Below are positions 26,346 to 36,774 of a DNA stretch of 64,000 nucleotides, piece after piece. Each line of letters starts with the position of its first letter. Positions within the stretch are counted from its first letter, which is position 1. Source of the stretch: Spirosoma linguale DSM 74 (lineage in GTDB: Bacteria > Bacteroidota > Bacteroidia > Cytophagales > Spirosomataceae); NCBI GenBank assembly GCA_000024525.1, contig CP001769.1, forward strand, positions 992,001 to 1,056,000. The letters run 5' to 3'. The notes under the pieces are model-generated. The model was not told the origin of the DNA and searched no databases. It worked only from the letters and a program-made list of their open reading frames with translations. The position numbers and the translations under genes are program-made.

Positions 26346-26486
26346 AGCCATATAATAGCATCCCGAACTTTTTTAGGTCGTATAGAGTCATGCTTACATC
26401 GTTTATCCTGCCTACTCACTTACTGACTTGAACATTCGGCCACTGATTGACCACTTTGGACTTGCAACAGTATACCGGAATTTTTT

Positions 26487-27245
26487 TTAAGCGGCCATTG
26501 AGGAAGTGTAAAAATATGATTCTTGTTGAGCGGGGGTCTGATAATTTAGACTTGAATGTTTCCTCCGACGATTATACCAACCCTCTATGTACTCAAATGT
26601 AGCCAACCGCGCTACACTCCGAGTCGGAAAATCAGTATGGTTCACCAGTTCACTTTTAAACGTCTTGAAAAAGCTTTCCGCCACGGCATTGTCCCAGCAG
26701 TTGCCTTTACGGCTCATACTCTGTACGACTGGCAGTCGCTTTAACTGCTCTCTAAATTCAGTACAAGCGTACTGGACGCCACGATCTGAATGAAAGAGCA
26801 GTTCGCCTTCTATTTGTCTGTTCTTAAGGGCCATACGCCACGCAGCTATGCTCGTATCGATGGCTTTCAAGTTATCGCTCAGTGCCCAGCCGATCACCTT
26901 TCGATCGGCTAAATCAAGTACGGTTGTCAGGTATAGCCAGCCTTCGTGAGTGGGAATATAAGTAATATCAGACACCCATTTCTGGCCTGGCCTATTAGCC
27001 GTAAACTCTCTGTTCAACAGATTTTTAGCTACTGGATAATCATGCGATGAATCGGTTGTCTGAACACGATACTTTTTATACATGATACTACGGATAGCTG
27101 CCTTGTGCATCAAACGGGCAACCCGATTACGCGATGCTTCAATGCCCCGCTCTCGTAACTCATCGGCAATCCGAGGGCTGCCGTATCGAGCCTGACTTTC
27201 GGCGTGTACCTGCCTAATATCGTCCAGCAACTGAGTTTGTTTCAA
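26487..27245 (-). CDS. IS3 family transposase, OrfB part
   Basis: This 252-residue DDE transposase domain reads from a TTG codon, because OrfB is normally made by a -1 ribosomal frameshift from OrfA. An N-terminal HTH_21-like segment (ARYGSPRIADELRERGI) is followed by the integrase core. The catalytic Asp is in WVSDITYIPT, the second Asp in FHSDRGVQY and the Glu in WDNAVAESFFKTFKSE. The catalytic core therefore looks intact. Without a working orfA there is no route to a normal OrfAB fusion, so the gene is probably silent. Confidence 0.9.
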   Translation of the reverse strand: MKQTQLLDDIRQVHAESQARYGSPRIADELRERGIEASRNRVARLMHKAAIRSIMYKKYRVQTTDSSHDYPVAKNLLNREFTANRPGQKWVSDITYIPTHEGWLYLTTVLDLADRKVIGWALSDNLKAIDTSIAAWRMALKNRQIEGELLFHSDRGVQYACTEFREQLKRLPVVQSMSRKGNCWDNAVAESFFKTFKSELVNHTDFPTRSVARLATFEYIEGWYNRRRKHSSLNYQTPAQQESYFYTSSMAA

Positions 27246-27436
27246 TTGCCTGGTACCGACTGGGTGCTTGCGCCAATAATACTGCGGTCTCCCCTGGAGA
27301 AGATGCCGACTGTCTTTGTTAGTATGTCGCCCTCAAGCTGAGCCTCTTTGAGCTCTTTCTGTAGTTGTTTGATCAGTTTCTGTTCCTCGCTCAATCCAAT
27401 GGCTGGGGTTGCTAATTGACTGGAACTTTTGTGGTT

Positions 27437-27455
27437 TTGCGGCAGCGGCCGACCG
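27437..27455. repeat. GC-rich micro-insertion c in IS3 orfA
   Basis: The 19-bp stretch TTGCGGCAGCGGCCGACCG lies between codons for TKWR and NHKSS. It can fold as CGGC/GCCG around AGCG. Its length is 1 modulo 3, so it shifts the frame. Its exact edges are uncertain by a few bases. Confidence 0.5.
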
Positions 27456-27474
27456 TCGCCATTTAGTGATTCGA

Positions 27475-27493
27475 CCGGTTCGCCGGTGCGATT
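27475..27493. repeat. GC-rich micro-insertion b in IS3 orfA
   Basis: The 19-bp stretch GACCGGTTCGCCGGTGCGA folds as ACCGG/CCGGT around TTCG. It separates GID from the TKWR segment of OrfA and shifts the frame. Edges are good to about 3 bp. Confidence 0.5.
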
Positions 27494-27552
27494 GAGTCGA
27501 TGCCTGACTCGCGAGCAGCCTCCTGAACCGAGCCTTTCGCATGGGATAACTC

Positions 27553-27571
27553 AACCGGTCCGCCGACGCGG
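27553..27571. repeat. GC-rich micro-insertion a in IS3 orfA
   Basis: The stretch AACCGGTCCGCCGACGCGG interrupts OrfA between MA and VELSHAKG. The net gain is 16 or 19 bp depending on alignment; both are 1 modulo 3 and shift the frame. It has CGG/CCG symmetry around TCCG. Confidence 0.5.
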
Positions 27572-27791
27572 GGCCATTTTCCTATACGTCTCGTCGAATA
27601 CACGCCTTTTTTTCATGGGTACCTTCTGGTTTGTTCCCAATGTGCCTAAAAACTGCCTCCAGTCAAATGTAGCAAGTCCAAAGTGTTGGTGACCATAATT
27701 CAGATTATACAACAGCTTAAATAGGCTTTAGATAATATGAGTCCACAATAACCCTTTGCATAGTTAGTCGGATGATAAAATAACTTCGGTC

Positions 27792-28412
27792 ATGAGAAAG
27801 GCATTATTAGTTTATCTTGTTTGTCACTGCTGGCTCTGCCAAGCCCAAACTCAACCCCAACTCAGCACGCCCTTTGAGAGCCCGAAGCCTTTCAATCGTA
27901 AAGATTGGTTGTTTGGCTTTCAGGTAGGGTATTCCAAGAATAGTTACCTTCACGAACGATACTCAGCTACACAAGCCTATGGAGGCTATTTCGTAGCTAA
28001 CAAGCTAGCCCTCGGCTTTTCGGCTTCTTGGGGTCGGGAAAGCTTTACAGCGGCTCATGACGCCACTTTTTCAGTGGGGCCCCTGCTTCGCTACCAGTTC
28101 ACCAATAGCCGTGTCTCCCCCTTTATTGTGGGCGCTTATCAATGGGGGAAGGCTACCGTCTCCAGTACCAACACTAAGACTTTTCCCATGGCTGAGAATC
28201 AGCGATCTATTCAGTCCGTTTATGCTGGGCTTGGAACCAGCATTCGAGTGGTGGCCGAGTGGCGGGTTGATCTTCTACTTACTTGGCAAGACAAACCGGC
28301 GGCTCCTGAGTCAGGTATCCAAGGAAGGTACCATCTTTTACAAGCCCAAATTGGTGCTAACTATTTAATTAACAAAAGGAGCGTAACACGATCTTATTGC
28401 GGATGTTATTAA
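27792..28412 (+). CDS. Outer-membrane beta-barrel protein with foreign C-terminus
   Basis: This 206-residue protein has a signal peptide (about residues 1-19, LVCHCWLCQAQ) and alternating-hydrophobic strands typical of small porin-like barrels (for example RVSPFIVGAYQWGKATV, QAQIGANYLINK). Function unknown. The last ten residues (SVTRSYCGCY) are translated from DNA that, on the other strand, encodes the end of an IS110 transposase (VLNNIRNKIVLRS). The natural end of the gene was therefore probably cut at about 28376, right after the last predicted strand. Loss of the terminal aromatic residue may impair barrel assembly. Confidence 0.7.
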   Translation: MRKALLVYLVCHCWLCQAQTQPQLSTPFESPKPFNRKDWLFGFQVGYSKNSYLHERYSATQAYGGYFVANKLALGFSASWGRESFTAAHDATFSVGPLLRYQFTNSRVSPFIVGAYQWGKATVSSTNTKTFPMAENQRSIQSVYAGLGTSIRVVAEWRVDLLLTWQDKPAAPESGIQGRYHLLQAQIGANYLINKRSVTRSYCGCY

Positions 28413-28560
28413 GCACCGCACAGGCAGCCCTGCAACATTTTGTTCTTACCCTCAGCTACTTTGGTCCGAAACTCTTCTGAGTGTAGGGTGGCAGATAAAG
28501 CTGCCAGATGAAGTAGCGCTTTCACTCTCTTGTTAGCAATCCGACCTACCTGAGGTCTAC
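28378..28560 (-). pseudogene. C-terminal remnant of an IS110 family transposase
   Basis: The minus strand reads GRPQVGRIANKRVKALLHLA, then ALSATLHSEEFRTKVAEGKN, then KM. After a 19-bp GC-rich insertion it resumes as VLNNIRNKIVLRS. This is the conserved end of the IS110 transposase second domain; compare the neighbouring intact copy (HLAAMSAV, AEGKNKMSVLNAIRNKI). The upstream part of the same gene is found at 29838-29915, beyond the intact IS110 element. Confidence 0.8.
28417..28435. repeat. GC-rich micro-insertion in an IS110 remnant
   Basis: On the minus strand TTGCAGGGCTGCCTGTGCG (19 bp) sits exactly between the codons for KNKM and VLNNIRNKI. It has CAGG/CCTG symmetry around GCTG. Both flanks match family sequence, so the edges are well fixed here. 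Confidence 0.65.
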
Positions 28561-28599
28561 CGCCCGGCCTTTAGGTTTGTGCGTTGAGACTATTCCAAG

Positions 28600-28794
28600 A
28601 TTGGAGTAGCTTGCTGGCAAGTAAAACGGACTGGCACATCCTACCGCCCGGCTGGGAGTTAGACCCATGGGCCGATTCAGAGGCCAGTCCGGATTGCTTG
28701 CTAAGACTCGAATAGAAATGCGGGTTAGCAGACCCATTAGAAAGGTATCGAGAAAACAGCAAGCTCTTTGTTCACCTTAAAAATAAGCTATTTC
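28600..28794 (+). ncRNA. Candidate IS110 bridge RNA region
   Basis: The non-coding leader of the IS110 gene can form CGGACTGGC (28627-28635) with GCCAGTCCG (28683-28691), a 9-bp stem around a 47-nt internal loop. A small CTTGC/GCAAG hairpin lies upstream. IS110 recombinases are known to use a structured RNA from this end to choose donor and target sites. The assignment here rests on position and folding only. Confidence 0.4.
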
Positions 28795-29802
28795 ATGGAA
28801 ACACATTACTTTGTGGGCATTGATGTATCAAAAGCTACGCTCGATTGGGCGGTTTTTAATGGTAAAACGATAGTCTTACAAACTCAGTCACTTAACTCTG
28901 TGGTGGCTATCAAAGCGACCATCAAAGTGCTCAAGGCACTGCCTAACTTTGATCTTCAACGATGTATATGTTGTCTCGAACATACAGGAATCTACAATGC
29001 TCTTATTCTTGATCAACTGATAGCTCATCAACTACCAACTTGGTTAGAAGGCAGTCTTCAAATCAAACAGGCAGGTGGATTACAGCGTGGGAAAAGTGAT
29101 AGCATTGATGCTCAGCGTATCGCCGAATATGCCTATCGTTTTCGTGATCGCATACGTTTGTGGCAACCACCCCGTTATGTGCTCCAAGAGTTACTCATAC
29201 TCAGTGCTTTACGGCAGCGGTTGTTGTTGATTCGGCAACAGTTACAAGTACCGGTTAATGAACAAGCCGCTTTTGTCTCACCTAAACTTCAGAAGCAACT
29301 GACTAAACATTGCCAGGCATCCTTGAAGGCGGTCAATGCTGATCTGGAAAAAGTCAATCAGCAAATGGATGAACTAATCCACCAAGACGAACAGCTCTGT
29401 GAACTCTTTAAGCTCATTACTTCCATTCCTGGAGTTGGACCAGCTGTTGCCACAGAAGTCATTTTGGCTACGGACGAGTTTAAGAACTTTGCTGAGCCCA
29501 AAAAGTTAGCTTGTCACGCCGGGGTTGCTCCTTTTGAACATAGTTCTGGTACTAGTGTCCGAGGTCGAAGTCGTGTTAGTCAGCACGCTCGTAAACGGCT
29601 TAAGTTCTTGTTTCACCTGGCCGCTATGTCAGCTGTCCGCGTAAAAGGTGAGCTGCAAATCTATTATCAACGCAAAGTGGCTGAAGGTAAAAACAAGATG
29701 TCCGTTTTAAATGCTATCCGGAACAAGATTATACACCGAATTTGCGCCGTAGTTCGCCGTGGGGAAAAATATGACAATTCTTATCCCCTTTCCCTTGCAT
29801 AG
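28795..29802 (+). CDS. IS110 family transposase (DEDD recombinase)
   Basis: I start it at METHYFVGIDVSKATLDW rather than nine codons upstream, giving about 335 residues. The N-terminal RuvC-like DEDD domain is complete: Asp in GIDVSKATLD, Glu in CCLEHTGIY and the Asp pair in KSDSIDAQRIAEYA. The C-terminal Transposase_20 domain has SIPGVGPAVATEVIL and the Ser-containing HSSGTSVRGRSRV. Family length is about 330-400, so it looks intact. A structured non-coding leader precedes it. Confidence 0.93.
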   Translation: METHYFVGIDVSKATLDWAVFNGKTIVLQTQSLNSVVAIKATIKVLKALPNFDLQRCICCLEHTGIYNALILDQLIAHQLPTWLEGSLQIKQAGGLQRGKSDSIDAQRIAEYAYRFRDRIRLWQPPRYVLQELLILSALRQRLLLIRQQLQVPVNEQAAFVSPKLQKQLTKHCQASLKAVNADLEKVNQQMDELIHQDEQLCELFKLITSIPGVGPAVATEVILATDEFKNFAEPKKLACHAGVAPFEHSSGTSVRGRSRVSQHARKRLKFLFHLAAMSAVRVKGELQIYYQRKVAEGKNKMSVLNAIRNKIIHRICAVVRRGEKYDNSYPLSLA

Positions 29803-29837
29803 ACCATAGAAATCGGCCCGGTCCGTTTTCGACCCGA

Positions 29838-29915
29838 GCTCTGTTCAAAGGGGACCACCCCGGCATAACAGGCAAACTTCTTGGGGTCTGTTATGTCTTT
29901 AAACCGCACCGATGA
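29838..29915 (-). pseudogene. Middle remnant of an IS110 family transposase
   Basis: The minus strand reads FKDITDPKKFACYAGVVPFE then QSSG, the conserved segment just before the GRPQVGRIANKR stretch found at 28378-28560. The two pieces are in the right order and orientation to be one gene split by the intact IS110 element between them. Confidence 0.75.
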
Positions 29916-30189
29916 TCTATGCAAGCGTTGGGACATACGTTTCCTTTCGCCGAACAACAGCGTACACTCGGTGGAGAGCTTATTGCATACATTTAATACG
30001 ACCCGTTAGATTAGCCCCACTCTGGTTGACTGCTGGCAAGCTACCGAATCCTGGAATCTTACCGGCCCTCAAACCTAAAGGCCGAAGCGGTCTTACCTGG
30101 CATACGCTTTAAGGCAACCCTGTGGGGCCTGCCGCTGGTACTGTCGTGAAAAACAAATTTTGAGGTAGGATTTTTTTAATATCTTTGAC

Positions 30190-31318
30190 TTATCTAAAGG
30201 ACAACTCTGCCAAGGTGGATTGATCCTGTGTAGTCCCGCTAGTCGGGACTATTTTTTTCTCGTTCTGTACAAGACTCTCACTCAGTCCAGGACCATGGGA
30301 ATATAACGGATCATACTTGGTTTGATGACGCCACAAGGCATACGCCAAGAGTAATAACTTTTTTTGGACGGCCACGTAAGCCTTCATTTTTGTATTCGTT
30401 CGTTGATAAATCCGCTCATAAAGAGCCTGACAAGTTGGCTCTCCAAAGCGGACTGCATTGAAGGCAGGTAAATGCAGAACACGACGAATACGACTGTTGC
30501 CTTTTTTAGAAATCTTGGTCTTACCTGAACGATTGCCTGATTGGTTTTCCACCACATCATAACCTGCATAGCTAACTAGTTGGCGCTGGTTGGCAAAGCC
30601 TTCAAACCCATTCGTCTCCGCAATTAGTACAGCAACCGAAAGTAGGGCTAAGCCTTTGATGGCTGTCAGCCGTTCAACTTGTGGGTTTAAAACGGCATCG
30701 TTCTTAATCAAATCTTGGATTGCTTTCTCCAGAGCTTCCAACTGTTGATCATAAACAGTCAGCAGCTTGGCGTTCTGTTTGGTGATAAAATCATCGCCTA
30801 CAGCGCTGGAATCCAAGGCGTGCTGCTGATTGCGACATTGGGTTTTCCATTCTTGGAATCGTTGATGTTGCCGAGTTAATAAACGCAATTGGTAGATATT
30901 TTTAGATATGGGTTCCCACAAAGTTAGCTGTTGTTCTAAGCCCATCCTGGCTAACCCCTGGGCATCAATCTTATCATTCTTCGACAGCGCCGGCTGCCCG
31001 GTTATAGCCCAAGCTTTTGAGATAATGTTTTGCCTTGTTAGGCAACAGAATACAGACCGACTCATTCTTCTGATAGAGGTGCCAAGCAATAGCCTCATGG
31101 TAAACACCGGTCGACTCCATCACATAGCGGAGCGGTAATTGATTGGCTTTACGATGCTTTTCAACCCACTGTTCTAATTGAGCAAACGCAGTTGGTTTAT
31201 TCACTACTTTAGTTGATCCTTTAACTACTACTCGTCCCTCGATATCAATCACCGAAAGACAAACCTGAAGCGAATCCTTACTGATGTCTAGACCAACACA
31301 ATACCGTAGCAGTTGCAT
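30190..31318 (-). pseudogene. IS110 family transposase, frameshifted
   Basis: The gene starts MQLLRYCVGLDISKDSLQVC, with the DEDD Asp in GLDISKDS and Glu in MESTGVYHEA. It runs to PNKAKHYLKSLGY and then goes out of frame. Sequence resumes in another frame as SKNDKIDAQGLARMGLEQQL (second Asp pair) and continues through AIKGLALLSVAVLIAETNGF and NQSGNRSGKTKISKKGNSRI to a stop at 30190. The switch point carries a 19-bp GC-rich insertion between codons for LGY and SKNDK. Without it the frame would be whole, at about 370 residues. As it stands the copy is dead. Confidence 0.88.
30985..31003. repeat. GC-rich micro-insertion in the second IS110 gene
   Basis: On the minus strand AACCGGGCAGCCGGCGCTG (19 bp) sits between the codons for SLGY and SKNDKIDAQ. 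It has CCGG/CCGG symmetry around GCAG. Family motifs on both sides make the edges clear. Confidence 0.65.
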
Positions 31319-31550
31319 AAGAAAGGGGATTAAGGTGAATGATTTGGTCGCTTGACGGCCTTTTCCCGCTGTTGCACATGGATGCCAGATCATGGTCAGC
31401 GACCATGTCTATGGGTACTGTTGGAGCTACAGGGAAAAGACAAGCTAGCCAGAACAACCAGCGGCACAGTATCGTTGGGACGTACTATCGGCGGATCTCA
31501 GGATGCTGGCTAGCCTTGTCAAGTCCTACTCAAAATTGTACTTTTTTGTA
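31319..31550 (-). ncRNA. Candidate bridge RNA region of the second IS110 element
   Basis: Upstream of the frameshifted transposase, CATGGTC/GACCATG (31391-31407) makes a perfect hairpin. GACAAGCTAGCCAG (31439-31452) pairs with CTGGCTAGCCTTGTC (31506-31520) with one bulge, enclosing 53 nt. This size and position suit a bridge RNA. The strand and exact ends are not determined. Confidence 0.4.
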
Positions 31551-31570
31551 GACAATCAAACTAAATCAAA

Positions 31571-31585
31571 GATATGTTCGGCGGA
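31571..31585. repeat. Possible further GC-rich micro-insertion
   Basis: TCGGCGGACCGTCGA resembles the insertions in the neighbouring transposase genes (CGG/CCG around CGGA). It lies in non-coding DNA, so no frame can confirm that it was inserted. Confidence 0.25.
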
Positions 31586-31848
31586 CCGTCGAAGCAGTAG
31601 GGTAGCTCACATTTGTGAGTGACCCAAGGTATCTAGAACAAGAAAGCCGACCTCGGAATAATATCATGACACAAACCTAAAGGCATACGCCTTGTAGAAT
31701 CAGCCGTTTACCTGAACGGTTGTTACGCCTGAGCGGTAGATTTTGCCGGACAATAACAGCAGGAACGTGGAAAGCGGTACACGATAGGTGTAATCGTAAC
31801 ACCGGCTTAATAGTACTAGTCATATATTTGCGGATGCGTACAGTAACA

Positions 31849-34440: not shown

Positions 34441-35184
34441 TTATTTCTCAGCCGCAAGACTTTGCTTGCGTCGCATCGATTCACCCTTCAACTCCATCCG
34501 ATGAGCCTTGTGAGTTAGCCGGTCCAGGATGGCATCGGCCAAGGTAGGATCGTCGATGTATTCGTGCCATTTACTCACCGGCAGTTGCGAGGTGATGATC
34601 GTAGCGGCCTTGCCATGCCGGTCCTCCATGATCTGTAACAGGGCCAATCGGCCATTCTGATCAAGGGGTTGTAAGCCCCAGTCATCCAGAATGAGCAGGT
34701 GTTGCCGCTCCAGACGACTCATCTCCCGCTGGTAGGAGCCGTCGGCTTTAGCCAGTTGCAGTCGCTGTATGAGCCGGATCAGATTGTGATAACCCACCCG
34801 ATACCCCAGCTGACAGGCCTGATAGCCCAGGGCCGAAGCCACGTAACTTTTGCCGCAGCCAGTTGATCCCGTCAGGAAGATATTCTCGGCTCGATCGATG
34901 AAGCGGCAGTCGGCCAAACGAAGCACCAGCGTCTTATCCAGGTTGCGGCCAGGGCCGTAGTGCAACTCTTCCAGCGAGGCCTGATAGCGAAAGCGGGCCG
35001 CCCGGATGGCCATCTGGGTGCGTCGGTGTTGACGGTACTCATGTTCAGCTTCAGTAAGCTGGGCCAGCAGTTCGTCGGCAGGCGGTTGCTGGTGAAGGGG
35101 TAGGCGAAGCAGGGTCTCGAAGGCCTGATACATGCCCACCAGTTTAAGGTCCCGTAGTCGGTCAAGTGTCGCTTGGTTATTCAT
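34441..35184 (-). CDS. istB: IS21 helper ATPase IstB
   Basis: This 247-residue AAA+ protein, DnaC/DnaA-like, loads onto target DNA and activates the IstA transposase. A Walker A motif (TGSTGCGKSYVASALG) lies near residue 110 and a Walker B/DDWG motif (LLILDDWGLQPLD) near 170, with sensor region ATIITSQLPVSKWHEY. Length is typical for the family (about 245-265). It follows istA on the minus strand after 48 bp. No defects were seen. Confidence 0.96.
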   Translation of the reverse strand: MNNQATLDRLRDLKLVGMYQAFETLLRLPLHQQPPADELLAQLTEAEHEYRQHRRTQMAIRAARFRYQASLEELHYGPGRNLDKTLVLRLADCRFIDRAENIFLTGSTGCGKSYVASALGYQACQLGYRVGYHNLIRLIQRLQLAKADGSYQREMSRLERQHLLILDDWGLQPLDQNGRLALLQIMEDRHGKAATIITSQLPVSKWHEYIDDPTLADAILDRLTHKAHRMELKGESMRRKQSLAAEK

Positions 35185-35232
35185 ACTTTTTATTCCCTTT
35201 TGTAGTTGGTACGTGTGTTGATTGGCTCGGCT

Positions 35233-36774
35233 TTACTGGTAGGCTGATGCGCCCCGGATGTTTTCATGGCTGGGTACTGAGCTGACAGGACTGGCATCGG
35301 AGAGCGTATCCAGCCCGCGTTCGATGATGGATCGGATGACTTTGTAGCTCACGCTCTGGTAGCACAACGCCCGTTGGCAGGCCCGCTCCAGACGTTCTCT
35401 ACCCACTTTCTTTTCCAGACTTAGTACACCCTGGCACGACTTATAAGCCTGTTCGGGATGCGCCCGGCTCGTTAGGATGGCTTCGACGGCCTGCCGGGTT
35501 TGGGGGCCAATGCGGTCGGCCCGACGGACGAACGTCTCCGGGCTCCAGTCACTGATCCACTGATGGGCTGGGGGCAAATGCTCTTTGAGTGTCGAGTAAT
35601 GGTACTGTCCCTGTAATCGCTGGTGAGTCGCAATACGCTGGTGCTGGCAGTAGACTTCAACGCTTGACGCCGTGTAGATCAGCCGTACCCACTGGCCGAT
35701 GTAGCGATAGGGTACGCTGTAATAATGCTTGTCTTCTGACAGCAGTACATGGCCGTTTTTCTGAACCCGGCTCCCCGCATAGTGTTTGATGAGATAAGCC
35801 GTGTTGGGCAACCCCATCAAGTGCATTCGCTCCCGCTCCTCGAACTGCGACTGCCGACTATGGCCCCGGTTCTGAAAGCGCATTTGGTTGTGGGCGTCGA
35901 GTAAGGGGCGGATAGCCGCATTGAGATCGTCAAGTCGATGAAAGACCTCATTGCGCAGGGGAGCGTAGATGCGTCGATAGAGGATGTTGACGGCTCCTTC
36001 GACCAGAGCTTTGTCGCGGGGCTTACCGCTCCGGGCCGGCAGGATCGTCGTTTGATAATGGAGCGCAAAGTCAGCCAGCGTCTCATTGATCTGGGGTTCA
36101 TAGCGATCCGAGCGAATCACAGCCGCTTTGAGGTTATCGGGCACGATGGCCGCTGGTACGCCCCCGAAGTAATGCAGGGCGTTTTGCAGGGCGGTGATGA
36201 AGTCCTCCTTGCGCTGAGTAGCCACTACCTGGGCGTAAGTGAGCTGACTGCAACCCAGCACGGCCACGAAGAACTCGACCGGCCTAACCTCCCCTGTTGT
36301 CTGGTCGACCAGCGAGAGCCGCTTGCCCGCAAAGTCGACGAAGAGTTTGTCGCCCGCTTTGTGCTCAATGTGCATGCTGGTCTGCTGCCGCTGGCTCCAA
36401 AGCTGATAATAGTGGCAGAACTGCGTATACTGATAGCCGTTGGGATGTTCGGCTTTGTAATCCAGCCAAAGACTATACCGGGTAACGCCGGGTCGGGTCA
36501 GTTCGCGGTCAATCTGAGCGAATCGTTGTTGAAGAATAGTTAGGGGGGCGTCGGGTGAGGGCGCAGGCGGACGACTTTGTACCAGCTCATCCAACTGTTG
36601 GTCGGAGAGTTGCGGGAGGGAAAGCGTTGCCGGATCGGGAAGCATGCGCAGGTAGCCCCGGACGGTATTGCGAGCCAGGCCTAGCGAACGGGCAATATCC
36701 CGGATAGACTTATGTTGCTGCTGGAGAAGCAGAATCTGACGGAGTAGGTGCATAGGAAGACGCTGGTTGGCCAT
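35233..36774 (-). CDS. istA: IS21 transposase IstA
   Basis: This 513-residue DDE transposase has an N-terminal helix-turn-helix (IRDIARSLGLARNTVRGYLR). The integrase core has catalytic Asp in LFVDFAGKR and VPDNLKAAV and Glu in DKALVEGAVNILYRRIY. A C-terminal beta-barrel/DNA-binding region follows. It should cut the IS21 ends and join them with IstB help. Full length and open throughout. Confidence 0.96.
   Translation of the reverse strand: MANQRLPMHLLRQILLLQQQHKSIRDIARSLGLARNTVRGYLRMLPDPATLSLPQLSDQQLDELVQSRPPAPSPDAPLTILQQRFAQIDRELTRPGVTRYSLWLDYKAEHPNGYQYTQFCHYYQLWSQRQQTSMHIEHKAGDKLFVDFAGKRLSLVDQTTGEVRPVEFFVAVLGCSQLTYAQVVATQRKEDFITALQNALHYFGGVPAAIVPDNLKAAVIRSDRYEPQINETLADFALHYQTTILPARSGKPRDKALVEGAVNILYRRIYAPLRNEVFHRLDDLNAAIRPLLDAHNQMRFQNRGHSRQSQFEERERMHLMGLPNTAYLIKHYAGSRVQKNGHVLLSEDKHYYSVPYRYIGQWVRLIYTASSVEVYCQHQRIATHQRLQGQYHYSTLKEHLPPAHQWISDWSPETFVRRADRIGPQTRQAVEAILTSRAHPEQAYKSCQGVLSLEKKVGRERLERACQRALCYQSVSYKVIRSIIERGLDTLSDASPVSSVPSHENIRGASAYQ

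Follow-up and report, generated by a model that had tools for sequence, protein, structure and literature searches.

A 16-bp tagged hairpin in transposase genes and intergenic repeats of Spirosoma linguale and some of its relatives

Why do several transposase genes in one region of the 8.49-Mb genome of the soil bacterium Spirosoma linguale DSM 74 contain short GC-rich stretches that break their reading frames, and what becomes of the genes that carry them? The region in question (hereafter, the window) is a 64,000-nt stretch of contig CP001769.1, to which all coordinates given below refer. A preliminary description of its sequence had listed five such stretches of about 19 bp in transposase genes of insertion sequences (IS) and had offered two explanations, namely, that they are tiny palindromic elements or that they are scars of a process that disables transposons. 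The five stretches are indeed present near the places given, and all of them break frames: three are in orfA of an IS3 element, one is in a probable IS110 gene remnant, and one is in an IS110 transposase gene. The comparisons reported here favor the first explanation. The stretches are probably copies of a minimal mobile hairpin resembling the repetitive extragenic palindromes (REPs), which would be tolerated within transposase genes through its removal or skipping.

The size of the inserts was established by frameshift-tolerant alignment of intact proteins (from loci L025 and L042) with DNA, in which jumps of 1-45 nt were allowed at a flat cost and whole codons were cheaper. Compared with its intact relatives, the IS110 gene of the window has a single insert of exactly 16 nt, and this alignment, which had been suggested as the way to fix the edges, does not bear out the length of 19 bp. 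In 49 IS110 loci, not all of them distinct copies (some were reached by two routes), the inserts were 16 nt long in 43 cases, 15 nt in six, 14 nt in four, and 1 nt in one, with 12 further cases of 3, 6, 9, or 12 nt; inserts of exactly 16 nt comprise 43 of the 54 that are not a multiple of 3 or are 15 nt long. In 28 loci of another family, characterized by the Pfam domains DDE_Tnp_1_6 and DUF772 and presumably corresponding to IS1182, 27 of the 35 inserts of any kind were of exactly 16 nt (the others being one of 15, one of 20, two of 1, three of 2, and one of 3 nt). The length and site tallies cover alignments with scores of at least 150, and the IS1182-like set was aligned after removal of L177 and L186, which are identical copies of L161. 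Relatives that carry the stretch in frame, which had been named as a possible objection, are represented solely by 15-bp variants at amino acid position 247 of the IS110 protein (L030, L033, and L035) and position 327 of the IS1182 protein (L184 and L241), whereas every 16-bp insert shifts the frame. A 14-bp variant is found at position 14 of IS110 (L033, L041, and L043).

In the window, the IS3 element lies on the minus strand, and the first of the three 16-mers in its orfA is at positions 27441 to 27456 (plus strand), with the tag GGCA, the stem GCGG/CCGT containing one G.T pair, and the loop CCGA; the identical sequence is found at the same place in a distant IS3 copy of the same genome, L011. 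The second 16-mer, at 27475 to 27490 (minus strand; tag CGCA, stem CCGG/CCGG, loop CGAA), is shared with copy L010, and L011 has an exact 16-column gap instead. The third one, at 27555 to 27570 (minus strand; tag CGCG, stem TCGG/CCGG, loop CGGA), is likewise present in L010 and has a degenerate form in L011. In sum, two of the three places are occupied in L011 as well and one is not, and L011 contains two additional inserts of 16 columns. The fourth 16-mer, CGCACAGGCAGCCCTG, at 28417 to 28432 (plus strand), interrupts a probable IS110-type gene remnant on the minus strand that was assigned by eye against the neighboring IS110 protein and of which a 242-bp part recurs at G000:C1:7279377. The frame breaks in this remnant and in the IS3 orfA were recognized by eye and from the alignment with L010 and L011, not from Pfam. 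The fifth one, AGCGCCGGCTGCCCGG, at 30986 to 31001 (plus strand), is located in the IS110 transposase gene at amino acid site 106, where it separates the second from the third codon position.

These 16-mers share a common layout, in which a 4-nt tag is followed by a 4-bp stem that encloses a 4-nt loop. The 23 distinct 16-mers can be aligned without gaps, 97.8% of their stem cells are paired, and their covariation score was reached by none of 500 shuffles; the second stem pair, for example, is CG in 12 of them, GC in 9, and AT in 2. The tag is mostly CGCN, with GGCN or AGCG in some. The dyads pointed out in the preliminary description are therefore real as a covarying family, but bare GC-rich 4-bp stems around 4 nt are not in excess in the window (101, versus 79-106 in five Markov shuffles), so what makes the dyads significant is the fixed length of the inserts, together with covariation and the comparisons between copies. 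The DNA folding energies of six 16-mers were ordinary relative to shuffled sequences (z scores from -1.64 to +0.38), and Rfam gave no match up to an E value of 0.1 for positions 26401-31800 of the window. Among the stem mismatches, eight are G.T on the tagged strand, one is A.C, and three are of other kinds, and the same is seen in inserts whose tagged strand does not correspond to the mRNA; this tally includes one doubtful G.T row (site 247 in L170) and five hand-typed rows, two of them with G.T. The mismatch bias leans towards the hairpin acting as single-stranded DNA.

With duplicates removed, 54 inserts of 16 bp occupy 25 sites (14 in IS110 and 11 in IS1182), which form 28 classes by family, site, and orientation. 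For this and for the tallies of same-site identity, matched codons, and decay given below, fifteen IS110 loci that repeat or overlap others (including L018 and L050) were dropped, as were the IS1182 loci L185, a repeat of L175, and L190, a partial copy with no 16-bp insert. Nineteen of the 54 inserts are tag first and 35 are reversed, and all three codon phases are represented. On the tagged strand, the base at position -1 is C in 22 of the 28 classes and T in 5, and the base at -2 is A in 17, so that insertion occurs mostly after AC or AT; target duplication is absent.

A covariance model of the family, run on the S. linguale genome, yielded 65 matches at an E value of 10 or better among the 150 scored of 2118 candidates, an incomplete list in which, given E values of 0.4 and more, weak single matches can be due to chance; one identical 16-mer accounts for 16 of the 65. 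The matches were placed by eye from translations of their flanks and, for some pieces, with Pfam. Eleven of them are in transposase genes of the IS3, IS5-like, IS110, IS1-like, and IS1182-like types, five are in frame within ordinary genes and look like chance matches (L135, L144, L149, L155, and L159), and about 49 are intergenic or were not assigned by eye, several of them forming inverted pairs. The claim that the stretches are confined to transposases, correct for the five in the window, accordingly does not extend to the genome, for which a search had been suggested: most matches lie outside genes or were not assigned. Still, among the 65 listed matches as placed by eye, no ordinary gene was seen to be broken out of frame by a 16-mer. 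A control based on synteny of ordinary genes was small (75,712 aligned bases in 15 genome pairs), since the relatives have little in common with the window, and contained one 16-bp indel, which had no perfect 4-bp stem. In L135, at about position 1500, an unbroken frame of 761 codons includes a stretch similar to the intergenic repeats together with a 16-mer, in frame.

The intergenic copies also provide empty sites. The pattern AAATCCYG-N(0-30)-GTTNNGAC has 20 matches, of which 6 are empty, 6 contain exactly a 16-mer, and 8 contain another 3-21 nt; its reversed control has 3 matches. Because the filled and empty sites differ by exactly 16 bp, precise insertion without target duplication takes place in noncoding repeats as well. 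16-mers are also located within further repeats between genes, of the CACTCTTTC-like and the CTCCTAAC-like type (L261, L262, L263, and L269), and several host repeats seem to collect 16-mers. The suggestion that the stretches could be tiny palindromic elements has been sustained by this combination of a single 16-bp hairpin family, precise insertion, and empty sites.

Pairs of inserts at the same site differ on average at 1.04 of the 16 positions, and 30 of 48 such pairs are identical, as opposed to 5.10 differences and 10 identical pairs out of 1383 for inserts at different sites; the earlier remark that the stretches differ in sequence is valid between sites but not within one site. The insert at IS110 site 106 is identical in six loci of the genus, some of them at saturated synonymous divergence (dS); L259, a plasmid copy from Spirosoma sp. 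KNUC1025 with three 16-bp inserts, has the identical sequence there as well. A stem change affecting both sides separates two species lines at IS1182 site 326, and a third line is intermediate, with the change on one side. The conservation extends beyond the genus: IS110 site 270 is shared between Spirosoma and Emticicia sp. BO119 (L092), with inserts one or two letters apart, and IS1182 sites 134 and 395 are shared with g16 (L241), a genome from a different genus in the same family, in which one stem pair is altered on both sides at site 395 and on one side at site 134. The second g16 locus, L244, is decayed, and no 16-bp insert was found in the eight loci from g32, which represents a further genus, or in one locus each of g26 and g31. 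Judging from these comparisons, the inserts are old at their sites, with insert-bearing and insert-free copies coexisting in both the IS110 and the IS1182-like families. The insert-free IS110 gene of Flavobacterium sp. SUN052 (L082) encodes a protein 95% identical to the Spirosoma family, which suggests horizontal transfer. GC-rich hairpins are sometimes hard to sequence, and an assembly or sequencing artefact could be imagined on these grounds; the same inserts are present, however, in separately sequenced records, including RefSeq contigs and the complete plasmid NZ_CP087140.1, which makes such an origin hardly credible.

Outside the inserts, the proteins encoded by the carrier genes are continuous and alike. 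For 19 of the 38 same-site, same-orientation pairs, dS could be computed (0.33-1.64), and the ratio of nonsynonymous to synonymous substitution rates (dN/dS) is 0.054-0.112; of the remaining pairs, 18 have saturated dS and one is too short. In this set, one locus pair is counted at two sites, and the IS1182 loci included are those scoring above 600. Such values indicate that the carriers are under purifying selection. Among copies that span 80% or more of the reference, 19 near-full-length carriers (12 of IS110 and 7 of IS1182) had 37 16-mers, two stops, and one other frameshift, and 17 non-carriers (11 of IS110 and 6 of IS1182) had one stop and no frameshifts, so the carriers are hardly more decayed than the insert-free copies. 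Carriers have also multiplied. In the genome, the IS110 element of the window has one split copy besides five full ones, the latter showing 100% identity over 1381 bp; the four copies of an IS1182-like element show 100% identity over 1696 bp. The insert is present in every copy of both. No insert-free copy of either multiplied element was found in the S. linguale genome (for the IS1182-like element, among the 9 of 16 first-look candidates that were scored).

These observations bear on the view that the hairpin simply kills dispensable transposase genes, so that the copies seen are either recent insertions or dead elements that intact siblings mobilize in trans. The absence of out-of-frame matches from ordinary genes is what would be expected if insertions kill, intact relatives do exist in some genomes (L025, L028, L042, L162, and L178), and some carriers are decayed. 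The low dN/dS between same-site carriers, the ratio of 37 16-mers to three other lesions, the finding of the same inserts at shared sites even where dS is saturated or the genus differs, and the lack of insert-free siblings among the scored copies of S. linguale all argue against it. The low dN/dS, the slight decay, and the multiplication of the carriers together disfavor killing of the gene, and we regard this view as rather unlikely. Even less room is left for a host defense that writes 16-bp hairpins into transposase genes as an off-switch. The frame-breaking matches that could be placed do fall into transposase genes of several families; yet the same element fills intergenic repeats, an IS21 element of the window has unbroken frames in 8 copies, and the carriers are constrained and multiplied, so a defense of this kind is very improbable. 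The proposed scar of a process disabling transposons is likewise not supported, in view of constrained carriers with few lesions, sites shared across species and genera, and multiplication of the elements with their inserts.

The explanation that we favor is the minimal REP-like mobile hairpin. On the tagged strand, this 16-bp unit of tag, stem, and loop follows AC or AT, and no target sequence is duplicated on its insertion. It resides in intergenic repeats and in transposase genes, in Spirosoma as well as in some of its relatives, and in turn serves as a landing place for IS110. The transposase genes with out-of-frame hairpins would still yield a product, the hairpin being removed or skipped. 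Two routes appear likeliest: precise excision of the DNA hairpin, in the way HUH/Y1 enzymes act on IS200-type elements, or removal or bypass at the level of RNA or translation. Ordinary genes may be free of the hairpin since inefficient removal would cost them too much, whereas low output would suit a transposase. The more specific proposition that Spirosoma and its relatives remove or skip the 16-nt tagged hairpin at gene expression, whether through excision from the DNA, removal from the RNA, or bypass by the ribosome, is advanced tentatively; it may be true, but we would not yet count on it.

Several observations weigh against this explanation. The wobble count is small and includes the doubtful row, the pair comparisons are not independent, and decayed carriers do exist (L097, L184, L181, and L244). 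The existence of an in-frame 15-bp variant, seen at two sites, could be a sign that inserts of 16 bp do some harm. Some genes have multiple inserts (five of 16 bp in L169, and four of 16 bp plus one of 14 bp in L043), which requires efficient removal and makes rare excision unlikely as the sole route. Seven of the 36 genomes of the genus have no Y1 match, including G005, which carries inserts, and in the 30 Y1 loci searched, the flanks of REP-associated tyrosine transposase (RAYT) genes read by eye carry other palindromes. Finally, site 106 in L044 is occupied by a different 16-mer, which shows that one site can receive more than one insertion. Together with L041, which has inserts missing in its near relative L042 at a dS of 0.29, this indicates that inheritance is not purely vertical and that turnover occurs besides conservation.

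How the frame could be restored can be narrowed down somewhat. Programmed ribosome hopping, of the kind seen in T4 gene 60 or in mitochondrial byps, is one candidate, given that short out-of-frame inserts, several per gene, are found in Magnusiomyces mitochondria, where the byp genes work (PMC5009743), and that conserved genes with several out-of-frame hairpin inserts are what is seen here. Unlike byps, the 16-mers have a fixed length of 16 bp and a covarying stem, occur between genes as well, and lack matched codons. Their occurrence in both orientations and all codon phases also argues against hopping, and matched take-off and landing codons, with nine codon positions tested, were found in 3 of 38 distinct inserts versus about 5 expected. 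Perfect codon matches are missing in several mitochondrial cases too, according to the cited review, but hopping between matched codons is not supported by our data, and hopping in general appears improbable. Read-through by compensating frameshifts seems unlikely in view of the IS110 insert at site 12, which immediately follows the first catalytic Asp. The hairpin would be neutralized in transposase genes by one of the routes named above.

As for the enzyme that could mobilize the hairpin, the tag, the AC flank, and the missing target duplication would fit an HUH/Y1-type enzyme by analogy with IS200/IS605 elements (PMC6006769), and Y1/RAYT genes (PF01797) are found in 29 of the 36 genus genomes. 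Among the 30 Y1 loci, only the IS200-type Y1 gene L194 (in G024) is closely bracketed by 16-mers; the two are oppositely oriented, lie within the element, and are found just before the start codon (positions 1454-1469) and just after the stop codon (1892-1907); L194 is a candidate for the mobilizing enzyme and the sole lead. In L209, three 16-mer matches are found 0.8-1.3 kb from the Y1 domain. RAYTs were considered as mobilizers, and this role is not established, the flanks that were read having other palindromes. On the flanks of the RAYT genes in L206 and other loci of the genus, a palindrome of their own is found, GTCGC...GCGAC, close to which TGTTTGTAG occurs; this is a separate repeat family.

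Palindromic elements of Rickettsia are longer and lie in frame. Their presence within genes is mentioned in PMC3733652, and the 16-mers resemble them as palindromes in coding genes but, unlike them, break the frame. The same source describes REPs as dispersed palindromes of 20-40 bp with an unpaired 4-nt GTAG or CGTC tag, with inverted pairs and with some copies in coding regions. The 16-mers share with them the unpaired tag at one end of the palindrome, the inverted pairs, and the coding copies and share with the CGTC repeats the lack of a dedicated transposase; they differ in being 16 bp long, in having mostly a CGCN tag, and in lying out of frame in conserved genes. In the IS200/IS605 and TnpA-REP systems (PMC6006769), the hairpins at IS ends are about 20-25 nt and the REPs 21-65 nt long. 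The tetranucleotide 5' of the hairpin foot, the fixed short flank, and the absence of target duplication are common to both; the 16-mer hairpin is shorter, and no Y1 enzyme is tied to it except for the lead L194. As far as the literature was searched, the 16-mer family is undescribed: no description of such inserts was found by title or abstract among the listed matches in the open-licence PMC literature.

The relationship between the hairpin and IS110 is reciprocal, as IS110 elements also land in 16-mers. When the flanks of 20 IS110 copies were joined, 16 gave a CGC-tagged 16-mer with at least three of the four pairs, and two of the other four have the tag GGC and all pairs. The IS110 element of the window (30136 to 31576, minus strand; ends inferred from the junctions) itself sits within a 16-mer (30133-31589), whose tag half, CGC, is at 30133 to 30135 and whose other 13 nt are at 31577 to 31589 (both plus strand). 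Unoccupied copies of one IS110 target are present in the genome (three exact and seven with one mismatch; control, one). In 17 copies, a word from the left end of the element recurs in the left half of its target, of 11 nt in 4 copies and of 5-9 nt in 13, and in 6 of the 17 this word is longer than in any of 200 shuffles. Such words would be consistent with guides in the bridge RNA of IS110 (PMC11208160). As in the reports on REPs as IS targets (PMC1525189) and on bridge-RNA IS110 elements, IS110 sits here in a palindromic repeat; the difference is that the target is the 16-mer and that the IS110 genes themselves carry 16-mers. A second IS110-type element (L114, L268, and L013) has 16-mers at two places, with a copy of the window IS110 between them, and one of its 16-mers directly follows the codon of the first catalytic Asp.

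The remaining features of the window are as follows. The IS110 transposase is encoded on the minus strand by an N-terminal frame that reaches past the insert (30974 to 31393) and a C-terminal frame (30190 to 31107). Another IS110-type transposase gene, at 28801 to 29802 (plus strand), is unbroken and insert free and has a second copy at G000:C1:7279632. The IS3 element comprises the orfB frame at 26487 to 27245 (minus strand; Pfam domains rve and HTH_21) and the orfA remains with the three inserts at 27333 to 27616 (minus strand; start codon at 27614-27616 read by eye); Pfam gave no match for the orfA piece 27333-27554. The IS21-type element at 34441-36774, with unbroken frames that we take to be istA and istB, is found at 8 places in the genome at 100% identity and is insert free by reading frame.

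If hairpin removal or skipping does take place, the 16-mers would be removable intervening sequences in transposase genes that throttle their expression. To our knowledge, removable intervening sequences that small are not known in bacteria. At 16 bp and with precise filled and empty sites, the hairpin is smaller than the REPs of the cited papers. For genome annotation, insert-bearing transposases are split into pieces, and for IS110, the 16-mers constitute a natural set of targets. The persistence of out-of-frame inserts under purifying selection would point to a new way of neutralizing short inserts or to a new on/off control of transposons in Spirosoma and its relatives.

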